Of a stretch of DNA of 32,727 nt, positions 8,909 through 18,341 are shown piece by piece. The notes beneath the pieces are model-generated. The model was not told where the DNA came from, did no database searches, and worked only from the letters and a program-made list of their open reading frames with translations. The DNA is from a virus. Both the position numbers and the translations under genes were made by a program. Position 1 is the first letter of the stretch; each line of letters opens with the position of its first letter. The stretch is from the IMG/VR virus record IMGVR_UViG_3300028925_010542, positions 1 to 32,727 of that record; one strand, given 5' to 3'.

Positions 8909-9555
8909 TATTCATTACCTTTCATCTGTCTAAATAATTCATCTGCTAACTTCTCACCATACTTTTTATCACTTACATAATGAACTCTACCCATTATTCT
9001 TGATTCAGAAACTTTCTTTGCTATATCCATATATTCATCTGTATTCTTTGGGTCTTTCTTACTCAATACTAATCCAATTAAACGACCTTGTAATGCGTGG
9101 CCACTTGGATAACTTGGTGTTTTAGCAGTATCTAAGTTATGTCGTTTAAAATCTTCTATATTATAATATTCTGCTATTTGAAATGGTCTTGGTCTGTTGT
9201 ATTTATATTTTAATTTAAAGAGATATTTAGCTGTGTCTTGAATAATCTGTTGTAAGTATTCTTCTTTAACATCAATATTATTTTTTTCTACTACTTCCAT
9301 AAATACTTTTACTGTATCATCATACTTCTCTACAAATTTATTATCAATAACTCCGTCATTGTATGCAAGTAGATAATGTATTTCCGATTTTGTTTTTTGA
9401 CTATCATTAGCAGGTGGTTTAATTCCTGATAACGATACCTTTGGTGGAAACAATTTAACTTCCCTTTTCATCTTTTTTAGGTGTCTTGGTTTTATGGTTT
9501 TGGAAAAAACCATATTCTTTAAACTCTCGTTTATAAGTTCTTTTAATTTAATCAT
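8908..9555 (-). CDS. PAP2 / class A acid phosphatase-superfamily protein
   Basis: This 215-residue protein carries all three PAP2-superfamily motifs: K-x6-RP in KYKYNRPRP (116-124), PSGH (150-153) and SR-x5-H-x3-D in SRIMGRVHYVSD (185-196). The predicted nucleophile is His192. Such enzymes remove phosphate from lipid phosphates, nucleotides or other phosphomonoesters. No transmembrane helices or signal peptide are obvious, unlike lipid-phosphate PAP2 enzymes, so it appears soluble. The N-terminus MIKLKELINESL is an amphipathic leader outside the catalytic core. GAGG precedes the ATG by 7 bases, and the start overlaps the upstream stop as ATGA. Phosphate scavenging or nucleotide handling is plausible. 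Confidence 0.85.
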   Translation of the reverse strand: MIKLKELINESLKNMVFSKTIKPRHLKKMKREVKLFPPKVSLSGIKPPANDSQKTKSEIHYLLAYNDGVIDNKFVEKYDDTVKVFMEVVEKNNIDVKEEYLQQIIQDTAKYLFKLKYKYNRPRPFQIAEYYNIEDFKRHNLDTAKTPSYPSGHALQGRLIGLVLSKKDPKNTDEYMDIAKKVSESRIMGRVHYVSDKKYGEKLADELFRQMKGNE

Positions 9556-9761
9556 TCACAATCCTCACATTGACATACTTTTAAATTATCAGGTATGTCG
9601 GTTCTTGTTATTTCGTTTCCGTCTTTATCTTTGATTGTTAAATCAGTATTGGCCTTTACCATTATGTCTTCAACTTCCAAATCATCTATATGACAACCAC
9701 AATCATTACATACTTTTGTAATAGTTCGTGTTCCGTTTGATGCTATATGTAATTTAATCAT
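9552..9761 (-). CDS. Small Cys-rich, zinc-ribbon-like protein
   Basis: This 69-residue protein has two Cys clusters that could form a metal site: CNDCGCH near residues 18-24 and CQCEDCE at the C-terminal end. The middle (VKANTDLTIKDKDGNEITRTDI) looks like a beta-hairpin insert, so the layout resembles a zinc ribbon. The gene lies between a HAD phosphatase and a PAP2-type phosphatase, overlapping the first by 8 bases and the second by 4. No DNA-binding or enzymatic motif is seen. Metal binding is likely from the Cys spacing; function is unknown. Confidence 0.65.
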   Translation of the reverse strand: MIKLHIASNGTRTITKVCNDCGCHIDDLEVEDIMVKANTDLTIKDKDGNEITRTDIPDNLKVCQCEDCE

Positions 9762-13189: not shown

Positions 13190-13477
13190 TTATCCTTTAA
13201 AAAAGTTTGCGTTAATTTCTACGAACCTTTGCATATCTTCTGGTGCGTCATCTTCATCCCAAATAGCATCTACTGGACATTCAGGTTCACACGCTCCACA
13301 ATCAATGCATTCTTCTGGGTCTATATAAAGTTGTTTCCCAGAAAGGTCTTTCATACCAATAACTTCTGCTCCTAATCCTGTTGGGTCGTCTGGTCCGTGA
13401 ATACAATCCACTGGACAAACTTCAACACACGCTGTATCACAAGTACCGATACACGGTTCTGTTATGATAAAGGTCAT
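13190..13477 (-). CDS. Bacterial-type ferredoxin with two Fe-S clusters
   Basis: This 95-residue protein has nine Cys in the arrangement of 7Fe/8Fe ferredoxins: C9-x3-C13-x3-C17-x3-C21-P-V-D-C25, then C57-x2-C60-x2-C63-x3-C67-P. Compared with Azotobacter FdI, C9, C17 and C67 would bind one cluster and C21, C57, C60 and C63 the other, with C13 or C25 as possible extra ligands. It would act as a low-potential electron carrier in the cytoplasm. The start overlaps the stop of the 45-residue gene as ATGA, and the CsgG-like lipoprotein gene follows. Phage ferredoxins of the plant-type 2Fe-2S class are known; this is the other, bacterial class. Its redox partner is not encoded nearby. Confidence 0.9.
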   Translation of the reverse strand: MTFIITEPCIGTCDTACVEVCPVDCIHGPDDPTGLGAEVIGMKDLSGKQLYIDPEECIDCGACEPECPVDAIWDEDDAPEDMQRFVEINANFFKG

Positions 13478-13611
13478 TTTTCTGTTTTGCCAAACCCTAA
13501 CATCATCAATTGTACCATAAGAATTAATCTTTTAATTAAAGATAAATCATCTCGTTTCAATTCATTTTGTATGTGTTTGAGTTTTGCTTCTTTTGTTTTA
13601 AATATTTGCAT
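13474..13611 (-). CDS. 45-residue small protein, coupled on both sides
   Basis: This short gene was found by reading the gap between the coiled-coil and ferredoxin genes. Its ATG (13611-13609) overlaps the upstream stop as TAATG, and its TGA (13476-13474) overlaps the ferredoxin start as ATGA. The product has a basic N-terminal helix (MQIFKTKEAKLKHIQNELKR) and a Met/Leu-rich hydrophobic stretch (LIKRLILMVQLMMLGF) that could sit in or on a membrane. No family is recognised. The exact double overlap is the main evidence that it is translated. Confidence 0.6.
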   Translation of the reverse strand: MQIFKTKEAKLKHIQNELKRDDLSLIKRLILMVQLMMLGFGKTEK

Positions 13612-14015
13612 TAGTTTTTAAACCTTGCTAATGGGTCACCGTGAAACTCTTCAATCATTACCTTAAGATTCTTAATAGAACCTTTAAGTTCTTTAATATC
13701 ACGATTAAGATTTACGATATCCTTTTCTAATGGTGATAAATCAACATTACCTACGGTATCTAATTTTTCTCTTAGGTAAACGATATCATCATCAAAACTT
13801 TGAATTTTGTTAGTGACTATTTCTATATCACTTGCTTCTGCAAATCCTTCAACTACTTCTTCTAATGAATCTATTCTACCTGTAAAAGTATACCAACCTG
13901 CTATCAAACCTGATAACACTGTTACTAAACTTACGATATTTGTTATTGATAATCCGAATTTTTTATTCTGAGCATCATCTAACATTTTTTCTGTATCTAC
14001 TACTTTTTTTGCCAT
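13611..14015 (-). CDS. Single-pass membrane protein with coiled coil
   Basis: This 134-residue protein has a short cytoplasmic N-terminus, one transmembrane helix (about residues 21-42, ITNIVSLVTVLSGLIAGWY) and then a periplasmic heptad-rich region to near the end (SLEEVVEGFAE..., DIVNLNRDIKELKGSIKNL). AGAGGA precedes the ATG. The topology matches an inner-membrane spanin subunit or another envelope-tethered coiled coil. No partner outer-membrane spanin lipoprotein is recognisable, although the CsgG-like lipoprotein gene lies two genes downstream. The gene sits directly after the Cys-repeat peptide. The function is uncertain. Confidence 0.65.
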   Translation of the reverse strand: MAKKVVDTEKMLDDAQNKKFGLSITNIVSLVTVLSGLIAGWYTFTGRIDSLEEVVEGFAEASDIEIVTNKIQSFDDDIVYLREKLDTVGNVDLSPLEKDIVNLNRDIKELKGSIKNLKVMIEEFHGDPLARFKN

Positions 14016-14026
14016 TTTATTTTCCT

Positions 14027-14110
14027 CTATTTACAATCGCAATTTTCACAATTACAATTTTCACAATCGCAATTTTCGCAATCACAATTTTCACATTTGT
14101 ATTCTATCAT
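14027..14110 (-). CDS. 27-residue Cys-repeat peptide, (CENCD)x4
   Basis: This gene is short but well supported: ATG at 14110-14108 follows AGGAG by 6 bases, and TAG is at 14029-14027. The product begins MIEYK and then consists of four 5-residue repeats CENCD, CENCD, CENCN, CENCD, followed by CK. Nine of 27 residues are Cys in a C-x2-C-x-C pattern, with no aromatic or hydrophobic core. It could bind several thiophilic metal ions or an Fe-S or zinc cluster like a minimal metallothionein. It lies between the PorV-like gene and the membrane coiled-coil gene, two genes before the ferredoxin. Metal binding is inferred from composition only. Confidence 0.7.
   Translation of the reverse strand: MIEYKCENCDCENCDCENCNCENCDCK
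14036..14095 (-). repeat. Four tandem 15-base repeats inside the Cys-repeat gene
   Basis: Four in-frame copies of a 15-base unit, TGTGAAAATTGTGAT and close variants, encode the CENCD/CENCN repeats. Copies differ mainly at third codon positions (TGT/TGC) plus one GAT to AAT change, so the protein repeat is kept while the DNA drifts. This suggests amplification followed by purifying selection on the protein. Confidence 0.9.
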
Positions 14111-14119
14111 TATCTTCTC

Positions 14120-14974
14120 CTAAAAATCAAACCCGAATGATAACATCAAGGTTTCGTTATGGAAACTCTCGGTATTGTAAAGATATGCTAATGATATATC
14201 CACAACATTAGTATTGATACCACCACCTATTGTGATGTAATCAACATTAAATTCTGGTTCTGAATAATACCCTAATCTTAAATTACCTACTTCTCCTAAT
14301 AAATATTCACCACCAACTCCAAATGAAGAATAATCTTCAAATAGTTTTATATCTGATAGTAAACTAAAACTACCAAAACTTTGTTTAATACCAATACCTA
14401 ATGACATTGGTAAACTTGATGATTGGTCTGCAAATTTCGTTTCACCACCTAAGTCTTTTAATACAAGACCTAATGATGTGTTACCGAATACTTTATGAGC
14501 ACCGATATCAACTCCATAATTCATATCAATATCTATATCATCAATGAAACTATGATTGTAAAGATTAAGTCTTGCACCCAATAACCAATCTCCTAATTCC
14601 ATAGCATAACTTCCACCAACTCTTAGTGATGATGAATCAAAATCTCCTGTTATGATACCACCAATATCTGCAGCTGTTTGAGTTCCGTAATCAAAGTAAA
14701 ATACTTCTACCGAAAATCCCATACCACTTGTGTATTGTAGATTTTGATATCCCATATCATCAACAAGATTTGGTAACCACTTTACATATGATGTTTCTTG
14801 GTGTGATTCAAGTCCTGCAAATGCTGGATTATGAAATAGGTTTTTAGAATTTGAATCCGCAATACCTGAATTTCCTGCTCCTGCACTATGAACACTTGGG
14901 TTCAATGTAAATATACTATTTGCCTGTGCGAATAGTGTTCCTGTTAATAGTAATAAACCTAATAATTTTTTCAT
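14120..14974 (-). CDS. PorV/PorQ-like outer-membrane beta-barrel protein
   Basis: This 284-residue protein has a signal peptide ending LFA|Q. Right after it comes a PorV/PorQ-type start, SAGAGNSGIADSNSKNLFHNPA, matching the family's 'SARSAALGGA...NPAGL' pattern. Strand-rich sequence follows and ends in Phe (LMLSFGFDF), as in outer-membrane barrels. PorV is the type IX secretion shuttle that collects cargo leaving the translocon and passes it to the cell-surface attachment complex; the wider family also includes FadL-like transporters. AGGAG precedes the ATG, and the start overlaps the upstream stop as TAATG. The T9SS cargo gene lies two genes upstream in the same run. Confidence 0.78.
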   Translation of the reverse strand: MKKLLGLLLLTGTLFAQANSIFTLNPSVHSAGAGNSGIADSNSKNLFHNPAFAGLESHQETSYVKWLPNLVDDMGYQNLQYTSGMGFSVEVFYFDYGTQTAADIGGIITGDFDSSSLRVGGSYAMELGDWLLGARLNLYNHSFIDDIDIDMNYGVDIGAHKVFGNTSLGLVLKDLGGETKFADQSSSLPMSLGIGIKQSFGSFSLLSDIKLFEDYSSFGVGGEYLLGEVGNLRLGYYSEPEFNVDYITIGGGINTNVVDISLAYLYNTESFHNETLMLSFGFDF

Positions 14975-15372
14975 TATTTAACTCCTCTGAAATTTCTTTC
15001 TTTTCTATGGTGTTTGTTTCGGTTGTCCATATCATCTTTTCCAATAACATATCCCAAACTAAAAATCACAATACTACCAAGTATCATACGATTTTTCTTT
15101 GAATGTATTTGGTGTTTATAATTTTTGTTATTAAATTTATTATGATGATGTTTATGTTTATTGACGATTTTTCTATCGTGCATTTTCATTCTCATCATCA
15201 TTTCTTCAACTTGAACTTGTCTGTGGTTATCTTTTTGTTTCCACATTCTTTCTTGTTGAAGTTGGTCCTTGTGTTTAATCATTTCTCTATGTTCTTTTTT
15301 AGCTTCATCAGTATCATTGATTGACTGAGCCATTAAAGGAAATAGAAATAATAGTAATAATAATTTTCTCAT
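14974..15372 (-). CDS. Secreted His/Met/Lys-rich protein with one membrane helix
   Basis: This 132-residue protein has a signal peptide (MRKLLLLLFLFPLMA|Q). It continues with a strongly charged, helix-forming region that contains MMMRMKMHDRK (58-68) and KHKHHHNK (72-79), in total about 12 His and 11 Met. A hydrophobic segment (96-111, MILGSIVIFSLGYVIG) and a basic C-terminus follow. The His/Met-rich region could bind Cu, Ni or Zn; the hydrophobic segment with small residues could insert into a membrane. AAGGAG precedes the ATG. It lies between the T9SS cargo and PorV-like genes. No family is recognised. Confidence 0.65.
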   Translation of the reverse strand: MRKLLLLLFLFPLMAQSINDTDEAKKEHREMIKHKDQLQQERMWKQKDNHRQVQVEEMMMRMKMHDRKIVNKHKHHHNKFNNKNYKHQIHSKKNRMILGSIVIFSLGYVIGKDDMDNRNKHHRKERNFRGVK

Positions 15373-15380
15373 AATACTCC

Positions 15381-18341
15381 TTATTTAATTATTGTAAATT
15401 TCTTAGACTTTATTTTGTTTTCTGTTTCCATTACAAATAGATAAATACCTGGTTCCAAGTCTTCATATCCACCATATCCACCTTCACCTATTACATCTGG
15501 TAAGTCTGAGAAAGTATAAGTGTGCATTCCGTCATTAACGACTTCATCTAATATTACACCGACTTTTTGTCCGTTAGCGTTATAAATACTAATCATTACT
15601 TGACCAGTTTGTTCCATAAAGAATTGGAAGTTAATAGATTCGTGTTCACTATTGTTATATGGATTTGGATAAACATAAGTCATTTCATCTTCTGATGGTT
15701 GTCCACCACCGAATGCCCAAAACTTATTCCATATTCTAATCTTACCACTTTGTCTATTCATAAGTAAGTCATCACCTGCTGGATTACCAGCGTTAGCTTT
15801 TCCTACAAATTGTAAGTCTGCTTCTGTCCACTCTTGGTTATTGTTTTCATTTAGTTTTGAATTAAATACTAATTGTAATCCAACCATTTCTTCTGTAATG
15901 TAGTAATCTTGTGGTGCATTGTTCGGTGAGTTATCTAATCCACCAAATGAAATTGTTTTGTATCCGTCTTCGTCAACTTCACTTTCATTTAAGTAAGTCA
16001 TCCACGGCCCTGGCAGTAATCCTGTTTGAGCGTCTATAAATTGTAATTGTTCTTCTTTATATCTAACTTCAAATTCAAATCCTGCTACTTTAGTTGGTAG
16101 TCCTGTTATTTCATCTACACTTGGTGTAATTGTTAATGGAACTACAACTTGGTTACCCATTTGAACTTTAACACTTCCGTCATCTGGTAATGATAAACTC
16201 ACACCTTGTGTTGAGTTCATACTTCTACTACTTCCATTATAGGTGTTGTTTGTGTTGGTATATGTCCAAGCTGTTGGTGCGTCATCACAACTTGCATTTA
16301 CACAATTTTGATTCCAAGAACTATCTCCTGAACTTCCGTTCTGAACCGTATGTGTTGACCAACGATAATATGTTGTTCCTGTGTAAGCGTCTTGATATCC
16401 ATCTGCACCTTGAGATGTTTCTAAAACTTTTGTTCCTGTTAAATTCATATCACCTGTAAAGTGAAGTGCTATTTCAGCTTGTGTATAATCTGGATTTACA
16501 TCTCCGTCAGTTGAAACATCAGGGTCATCAAAGGTTGATGTTCCTGCTAAAATTACTACTTGTAAAGTATCATTACCTGTTACGACATCATCCATCAAAG
16601 CATTTAACCAAACAACTCCCCCAGCGTCTTGTGTTAGTGTTGTTGTTTCTTGTGGTAAGCTGTCATCCCAAAATGCTGTAAATTCTCTTCTTTGTTTTGT
16701 ATCACCACCTCTAAGTGCTTGGTAATAACTAAGACTTTGTGCATTTCCGTTTGCTTTTAAATTATCTATACTTGACCATTGTTGATAAGTGTTTCCATTA
16801 ATGTGAGTATATGATGTTGAGAATACTCCACTTACATACGCCCATAAGAAATAAGCATCATTTAATTGGAACAAGTCATCTCCGTCAACATCACCAATTA
16901 AATATGCACTTGGTGAATCTACATTAATACTTGTTTCATTTATAAATTTATTTGATTGGAAATTAAATGATGCGATTGCGTCATTAATATTTGTAATAGC
17001 ATATCTATCCAATTCCAATTGTGAATGACTTCCGATATCATCATTTGCGTCTGGTGGCCAGAACGAAACACGATAAGTATTGTTTCGTGGTAATTGGATA
17101 TTGTAATATCCATTTTTATCTGTATAGGTGTAATCAAAATATGATACTCCTAAGAATCCTTTACCTGGTAAAGCTTGTGATGCCAAAGCTGTTGGTGTGG
17201 TTGTGTCTGTTAATTTATAATAGTAATAAGTTCCACTAGCGTCTCCAATAACATCATCACTTAAATCTTCATCTGCTGTGTTTGCGTCATCAGCAATACT
17301 TTCTATATTATACCAATTACTAAATGGTGTATTACCATCTACATTTGGATTTGCTTCATCCAATTCAAAAACAACTTTCCAATATGGATATGTTTTTTGA
17401 ACAAATGTATCGTCGTCTATTCCGTCTGAGTCTGTATTGGTTTTTTCTCCAATATATCTACCGAAACCTTCAATGTCAACAAGTTTTGGATGTAGAGAAA
17501 TATCTCCTCTTGCACCACCATTGTTTACTGAATCAGTTCCCCAATTTCCGTCAATGTATACTTTGTAATCTAATAAGTAATCATCAGATACATAAGTATA
17601 ATATCCAGTTCCACCACTATAAAGTGTTGGTATTCTAAATGAACGTGGTTGATAATTATCAACTACATCATTAATTCTAAATGTTAATTTAAGAACTTGT
17701 GCTTGATTTCCAGAACCATTACCAAATGTAAAATCTGGTGTTCCATCACCTGCTCCATTATTTTCAGCGATATCAACTCCGTGACTTACCATAGTAACTC
17801 TTAACCAATCATAACCTGAATCATTTGCTGAAGTTTCATTCCCACTACTTTGAATAGTATCAGTATATCCTACATTGGAATAATGAACCACCTCAAATGA
17901 ATAGTCTGTTGAATTAGTTGATGTTTCATCACCCTCAGTCCAACCTGATATTTGACTACCTTTAATTACTCGTGAGTTTCCTTGAGTCCAAGCATTGATT
18001 GATGTTTCTTGTGTAGTTCCATCATTTTCAATCCAAGTGATTAAATCATTATCAAATGCTATGTCAAATCTAAATGTAGTAATATCTTTACCTACATCGT
18101 CAAGAGTGACTTCTAATTCTAAAATATCATCTCTCCAAGAATCAAAATTATTATTTGTTAGGGCTGGTGTTGATATATCATCTGCCAAAAATGTTTGTAA
18201 TTGTACAGTTGTTTGGGCTTTCCACCAATATTCTGGTGTCTTCCACTCCCCTATTTGTTTAACTCTTATAATTGGATTCTGTGCAAAGACAAATCCAAAC
18301 ATAACTGCTGTCATAACTATTTTTTTCATAAAACGAAACAT
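15381..18341 (-). CDS. Large secreted protein with T9SS C-terminal sorting domain
   Basis: This 986-residue protein has a signal peptide ending FVFA|Q. A beta-rich N-terminal half follows, then a dockerin/EF-hand-like loop DVDGDDLFQLND (about 485-500). A cohesin-like segment (about 725-870) contains VQMGNQVVVPLTI and VAGFEFEVRY. The last roughly 95 residues are a type A T9SS sorting domain: YVYPNPYNN near 888, a G-x-V...GMHTY middle, then LEPGIYLFVMET and the KKFTIIK ending. Such domains direct export through the type IX system and surface anchoring in FCB bacteria. GGAG eight bases before the ATG supports this start. It opens the envelope-gene block, directly after tail genes. The enzymatic role, if any, is not visible; an adhesin or surface-layer role is plausible. 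Confidence 0.85.
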   Translation of the reverse strand: MFRFMKKIVMTAVMFGFVFAQNPIIRVKQIGEWKTPEYWWKAQTTVQLQTFLADDISTPALTNNNFDSWRDDILELEVTLDDVGKDITTFRFDIAFDNDLITWIENDGTTQETSINAWTQGNSRVIKGSQISGWTEGDETSTNSTDYSFEVVHYSNVGYTDTIQSSGNETSANDSGYDWLRVTMVSHGVDIAENNGAGDGTPDFTFGNGSGNQAQVLKLTFRINDVVDNYQPRSFRIPTLYSGGTGYYTYVSDDYLLDYKVYIDGNWGTDSVNNGGARGDISLHPKLVDIEGFGRYIGEKTNTDSDGIDDDTFVQKTYPYWKVVFELDEANPNVDGNTPFSNWYNIESIADDANTADEDLSDDVIGDASGTYYYYKLTDTTTPTALASQALPGKGFLGVSYFDYTYTDKNGYYNIQLPRNNTYRVSFWPPDANDDIGSHSQLELDRYAITNINDAIASFNFQSNKFINETSINVDSPSAYLIGDVDGDDLFQLNDAYFLWAYVSGVFSTSYTHINGNTYQQWSSIDNLKANGNAQSLSYYQALRGGDTKQRREFTAFWDDSLPQETTTLTQDAGGVVWLNALMDDVVTGNDTLQVVILAGTSTFDDPDVSTDGDVNPDYTQAEIALHFTGDMNLTGTKVLETSQGADGYQDAYTGTTYYRWSTHTVQNGSSGDSSWNQNCVNASCDDAPTAWTYTNTNNTYNGSSRSMNSTQGVSLSLPDDGSVKVQMGNQVVVPLTITPSVDEITGLPTKVAGFEFEVRYKEEQLQFIDAQTGLLPGPWMTYLNESEVDEDGYKTISFGGLDNSPNNAPQDYYITEEMVGLQLVFNSKLNENNNQEWTEADLQFVGKANAGNPAGDDLLMNRQSGKIRIWNKFWAFGGGQPSEDEMTYVYPNPYNNSEHESINFQFFMEQTGQVMISIYNANGQKVGVILDEVVNDGMHTYTFSDLPDVIGEGGYGGYEDLEPGIYLFVMETENKIKSKKFTIIK

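Follow-up and report, generated by a model that had tools for sequence, protein, structure and literature searches.

The window, a 32.7-kb IMG/VR viral contig (32,727 nt), carries T4-like tail and primase genes. Among cultured phages, its baseplate-wedge protein is closest to those of Microcystis phage Mel-JY01 and Flavobacterium phage 'immuto', with 40-47% identity. The region under study is encoded on the minus strand and comprises the following features, listed in the direction of transcription:

14120-14974, minus strand: preceding gene, PorV-like, 284 aa, with a signal peptide and beta-rich; orthologues known
14117-14121, minus strand: AGGAG ribosome-binding site, 6 nt 5' of the ATG; read from the sequence
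14027-14110, minus strand: Cys-rich micropeptide gene, 27 aa, MIEYKCENCDCENCDCENCNCENCDCK; identified from the ORF, orthologues in the same place and Cys-codon constraint
14033-14095, minus strand: 15-nt tandem repeat coding for CENCD/N units; 4.2 copies with 85% match in TRF
13611-14015, minus strand: following gene, TM-cc, 134 aa, with one membrane helix and a coiled coil
13190-13477, minus strand: ferredoxin-like protein (Fer4), three genes downstream of the micropeptide

An earlier note on this DNA had described a 27-residue Cys-repeat ORF with an AGGAG site, a clean start and stop, four repeats with drifting third positions and one-third Cys in C-x2-C-x-C spacing. Each of these elements is found in the sequence, and the ORF can be placed on the minus strand, which the note had not given. 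The ATG occupies positions 14110-14108 and the TAG stop positions 14029-14027, while the AGGAG (14121-14117) overlaps the TAG stop of the preceding PorV-like gene (14122-14120). Nine of the 27 residues are Cys with a spacing of 2,1,2,1,2,1,2,1. What distinguishes the four 15-nt units is TGT/TGC variation at the third positions of Cys codons and a single D-to-N replacement. The TM-cc gene begins 11 nt past the micropeptide stop; the AF2 model of its product is all-helical with low confidence (pLDDT 48.7). The designation PorV-like refers to the appearance of the 284-aa protein, which has no Pfam or PHROG match.

No other ATG mini-ORF of 9-45 aa in the window has at least 4 Cys and at least 25% Cys, and composition shuffles of the window yield 0.025 ORFs with at least 33% Cys per window. 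ORF 14110-14027 goes beyond what is expected by chance, and with its frame and cysteines kept in orthologues it is confirmed as a real gene.

Several other products of the window are worth recording. The Fer4 ferredoxin (13190-13477) has 115 viral relatives confirmed by scan and is unusual for a phage late operon. A 986-aa secreted protein (15381-18341) shows a cohesin-like match and a sub-threshold Por secretion-tail match, which together suggest a T9SS-bearing host. A 132-aa signal-peptide protein in the same operon (14974-15372) is very rich in His, Lys and Met (KHKHHHNKF) and may bind metal, and a 69-aa protein (9552-9761) with CxxCxC and CQCEDCE at its ends is a possible zinc ribbon. No metal-transport or metal-regulation gene lies beside the micropeptide gene.

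A micropeptide family in marine phages

BLAST of cultured phages gave no match to the micropeptide. Relatives were retrieved from viral contigs using the neighbouring genes as synteny anchors together with DNA patterns. Scanning marine viral contigs with an alignment of the TM-cc protein yielded 62 loci, of which 36 harbour a Cys-rich mini-ORF of 11-27 aa in the same place, defined as an ATG-initiated mini-ORF in the 200 nt 5' of TM-cc that contains at least 4 Cys and at least 25% Cys. About 40% of the phages with a TM-cc locus have no micropeptide gene at that place. Only four comparable Cys-rich ORFs occur elsewhere in the TM-cc loci, in 565,016 bases counted over both strands, and three of these look like moved family members: the peptides of L372 and L379 (MKNVCDNPNCECENCTCENCNC and MIYACDNPNCECENCQCENCQCENCNC) are encoded three genes downstream of the usual place, and that of L415 (MKCDCCNCTCC) precedes a gene other than TM-cc. 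With the window and L009 included and an SD site required for every micropeptide, the family comprises 38 loci with 24 distinct DNA sequences and 23 peptides; as some contigs are near-identical, the distinct sequences are the better count.

Near relatives in the same place are MIEYKCENCDCENCDCQNCDCQNCDCK, ...CENCNCK and MMCNNPECKCENCNCENCNCK, and more distant ones are MKCDCCNCTCC and MKNYQDNCECGCCN. The CENCD repeat emphasized in the earlier note is not conserved as such among these relatives and represents a local form of a broader family. What is conserved is a dense thiol array built from CxC, CxxC and CC, usually with 6, 7 or 9 Cys. An exact search of 2.9 million viral contigs with the 11-aa pattern M[K/N]C[D/E]CCxCxCC-stop gave seven matches, none outside this phage group; six precede TM-cc or a neighbouring gene, and the seventh is truncated by the end of its contig. 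A 19-aa pattern gave 16 matches, most of which precede TM-cc and some of which are cut by the contig end; those in L425, L430 and L437 precede a gene other than TM-cc. A loose 7-Cys DNA pattern returned mostly noise, with L239, L310 and L339 as exceptions. The micropeptides are thus a genuine, conserved, unusually small, movable stand-alone gene family of marine phages that was previously unlisted.

Selection on the cysteine codons

In six equal-length homologue pairs, which are not all independent and whose members were picked as Cys-rich, none of 48 Cys codons changed residue and eight changed synonymously (TGT/TGC), compared to residue changes in 30 of 53 non-Cys codons (Fisher p=3e-11); longer forms could lose up to half of their Cys and still pass the Cys-rich label. 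The gene is under selection for its cysteines. Loss of the frame or the repeats, or disruption of Cys codons, in related phages had been named as evidence against the gene; in these relatives the frame and the cysteines are conserved. Although the tandem repeat and the very short ORF might point to a chance ORF or a non-coding minisatellite, frame, start, SD site and cysteines are kept in diverged phages whose DNA differs and lacks the repeat, and the Cys codons vary only synonymously. This constraint essentially rules such an origin out.

Leader peptide and ferredoxin partnership

At most loci the ORF is very short, Cys-rich, led by an SD site and located 9-17 nt 5' of the next gene. This would also be expected for a cis-acting leader peptide, in which slower translation of the many Cys codons under low cysteine tunes translation or transcription of the following gene. 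The hairpin of the window copy folds better than shuffles (z=-3.1). However, this hairpin follows from the tandem repeat and is not conserved: of five relatives that were folded, three have z-scores close to 0 (0.0 in L363, -0.04 in L359 and -0.4 in L396). There is neither a terminator-like site nor an Rfam match. The ORF precedes at least four different genes (TM-cc, the MANWDSVAEDF gene, a secreted-protein gene in L372 and L379, and the MIKLKKLI gene in L425 and L430), TM-cc is kept in phages that have no micropeptide, and the Cys spacing conserved in the protein would be needless for a leader. Since the gene moves between operon sites, we consider a cis-acting leader highly improbable and dismissed it mainly on this ground.

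The thiol density of the peptide and the Fer4 gene three genes downstream in the window phage could likewise indicate an Fe-S cluster carrier or iron donor acting with the phage ferredoxin, or a plain thiol redox buffer; the earlier note had suggested a metal or Fe-S binder. The co-occurrence expected from such a partnership is not in excess: the peptide is found in 10 of 14 contigs with the ferredoxin and 18 of 36 without it (p=0.22; the contigs are fragments), and contigs of 54-82 kb carry the peptide without a ferredoxin. Furthermore, the CxxCxxCxxxC motif is absent from the peptide, and a redox buffer has no need for spaced CxC/CxxC arrays. The Fe-S role with the ferredoxin was dropped for want of co-occurrence, and we regard this group of functions as very unlikely.

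Similar peptides in other phages and in bacteria

The pattern CENC[N/D]CENC has matches in 36 contigs, of which 29 (L015, L018 and L023 among them) are from a second, unrelated marine phage lineage in which the peptide is longer, e.g. MADEDKKNCNCENCDCENCTCSEENPCACMTDKQGEDTNG. In this lineage the Cys-rich gene is located near terminase and portal genes, flanked by a membrane coiled-coil gene on one side and a small holin-like membrane gene on the other. Every pair compared shows only synonymous change in the Cys codons. Homology of TM-cc to this TM/coiled-coil neighbour was considered and rejected (hhalign probability 9%, covering the C-terminal coil only); with so low a probability, the shared position beside a membrane coiled-coil gene is a lead and we make no claim from it. 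In L010 and L041, isolated similar peptides map to T4-like head and tail regions.

When bacterial genomes were scanned by pattern, short peptides sharing the Cys arrangement of the phage peptides emerged in Tamlana, Dyadobacter, a Flammeovirgaceae MAG and a Lentisphaeria MAG. In every case the gene immediately downstream encodes an ECF sigma factor that scores best against SigZ in NCBIfam, below the cut-off; when the Cys peptides were placed automatically relative to the SigZ genes, the sigma frame was recovered at some of the loci only. In Bacteroidota and the one Lentisphaeria MAG these Cys-rich peptides measure 33-49 aa (L194, L203, L210, L178, L198, L189 and L148, together with L461, L462, L464, L470 and L475, which were added by a survey of 395 genomes of Tamlana's class). 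Flavobacteriia-type genomes encode CxCxxCxC-array peptides of 33-41 aa, e.g. MTYKGECTCNCDGCKTGSCTNCTCENCTCSNCNC in L462. Neither these SigZ-adjacent peptides nor those of the other phages fall within a family of Pfam, NCBIfam, PHROG or PDB, and the SigZ-like sigma factor and its Cys-rich neighbour apparently constitute a putative, undescribed sigma/metal-peptide pair. Since activation of CorE-type sigma factors proceeds through a metal-binding domain rich in Cys (PMC8999054), a metal link to the SigZ-like sigma gene is plausible. Separately, a Pelagibacteraceae genome encodes a 39-aa Cys-rich peptide, MACENKSCNCKNCNCEECKCDGSKVCTCSPESNSCCCNS (L170:1125-1163), between a metallo-beta-lactamase-fold gene and cysE/cysK, the serine acetyltransferase and cysteine synthase genes that it adjoins.

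These cellular counterparts raise the question whether the phage peptide is a protein-binding effector that attaches to a host regulator, such as a SigZ-type sigma factor or another thiol/metal sensor, and mimics the host Cys-rich peptide encoded beside that sigma gene. In line with this, genes for SigZ-like ECF sigma factors in Bacteroidota and a Lentisphaeria genome are immediately preceded by CxCxxCxC peptides of 33-49 aa, and the tail genes of the window have their nearest cultured relatives in Microcystis and Flavobacterium phages, which makes a Bacteroidota host possible. The link to the SigZ peptides, however, consists of the Cys pattern only, and a specific protein interface is disfavoured because the spacers differ freely. 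We therefore hold an effector role to be unlikely.

Discussion

The properties of the family point to a metallothionein-like peptide. Over the 24 distinct sequences the micropeptides measure 11-27 aa with 29-55% Cys, the lowest value belonging to a 14-aa form with 4 Cys, and in most members Cys makes up a third to over half of the residues. The Cys spacings are nearly all 0, 1 or 2 residues, and Cys counts of 9, 6 and 7 predominate. The spacers are polar or acidic and freely variable, with 0-1 aromatic or His residues; 17 of the 24 sequences contain no F, W, Y or H, while the window peptide has one Tyr. The micropeptides have no signal peptide. One form, MKNYQDNCECGCCN, contains only 4 Cys, which is little for a metal cluster. 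Zn3Cys9 and Zn2Cys6 clusters occur in the plant metallothionein (MT) Ec-1 (PMC10612145), and 7-Cys Cu units in fungal MTs (PMC4755600). Taken together, the Cys-only constraint, the free polar spacers, the scarcity of aromatics and His, the lack of a signal peptide and the Cys counts of 9, 6 and 7 argue for a cytosolic metal-thiolate (metallothionein-like) peptide as the likely function, to which we assign a probability of about 0.7. The description as minimal metallothionein-like given in the earlier note fits the real gene, the Cys-only constraint, the free polar spacers, the few aromatics, the spacing and the Cys counts, while its Fe-S/ferredoxin part is not supported.

Neither the micropeptides nor their relatives have an above-threshold match in Pfam, NCBIfam, PHROG or PDB; this includes the metallothionein families of Pfam and NCBIfam and any PDB chain. 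By every sequence feature tested, except a strict absence of aromatics, the micropeptide is metallothionein-like, and it falls outside all described MT families. Phytochelatins and synthetic EC-repeat peptides resemble the phage peptides in being short and acidic with regularly spaced thiols, but phytochelatins are enzyme-made with gamma-Glu bonds whereas the phage peptides are ribosomally encoded. The bacterial MTs SmtA/BmtA/PmtA comprise about 55-80 aa, use His ligands and adopt a zinc-finger fold. Like the phage peptide they are small, cytosolic and Cys-rich (PMC10612145), but the phage peptide contains no His and with 27 aa is too short for a zinc-finger fold; the Pfam/NCBIfam bacterial metallothionein profiles do not match the window peptide or its relatives. 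The short fungal Cu-MTs of family 8 (Neurospora crassa, Agaricus bisporus), with about 26 residues and 7 Cys in CxC motifs (PMC4755600), share with the phage forms a single Cys-rich unit and few aromatics. They differ in their Gly/Ser spacers, as compared to CxCxxC or CC spacing with acidic/Asn spacers in the phage forms, which are phage-encoded, reach down to 11-12 aa with 6 Cys and have no demonstrated sequence homology to the fungal proteins. The SigZ-adjacent Bacteroidota peptides carry the same CxCxxCxC arrays but are longer and lie beside an ECF sigma gene, and homology is undemonstrable at such length. Pentapeptide-repeat proteins (PF00805) have the five-residue period in common with the window peptide, whose match of 15.7 bits is below the 20.2-bit cut-off; the window peptide has only four units, and its relatives show no such period.

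In the metallothionein-like reading, the micropeptide would be translated as a separate late-operon cistron, coupled to the preceding stop codon. The product would be a free, cytosolic and largely unstructured peptide that folds round soft metal ions via its Cys thiolates, i.e. a metallothionein-like peptide reduced to a single cluster. The nine Cys of the 27-aa and 19-20-aa forms could accommodate one M(II)3Cys9 cluster, and the six Cys of the 11-15-aa forms either M(II)2Cys6 or Cu(I)4Cys6. Its likely role would be Zn or Cu buffering, or Cd/oxidant scavenging, in the host cell late in infection. Metal binding, the choice of metal and the benefit to the phage are all inferred from the sequences. 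It is also conceivable, if doubtful, that these single-cluster peptides of 11-27 aa are the shortest known metal-cluster peptides made by ribosomes, that they arose or were acquired repeatedly, and that marine phages use them to usurp the metal or thiol signalling of the host, possibly through imitation of the SigZ-adjacent peptide of Bacteroidota.

The Neurospora MT, with 26 residues, is the textbook shortest metallothionein form (PMC4755600), and we found no report of a phage metallothionein in the open-access full-text literature. If they bind metal, the micropeptides would probably be the smallest gene-encoded metallothionein-like peptides so far and, as far as the open-access literature reaches, the first described from phages. 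The SigZ-linked cellular peptides provide a testable parallel in culturable bacteria. If metal-binding, the micropeptides would also be a clear case of functional 11-codon genes, found only via synteny and codon constraint, and would imply phage control over the metal or thiol balance in late infection.
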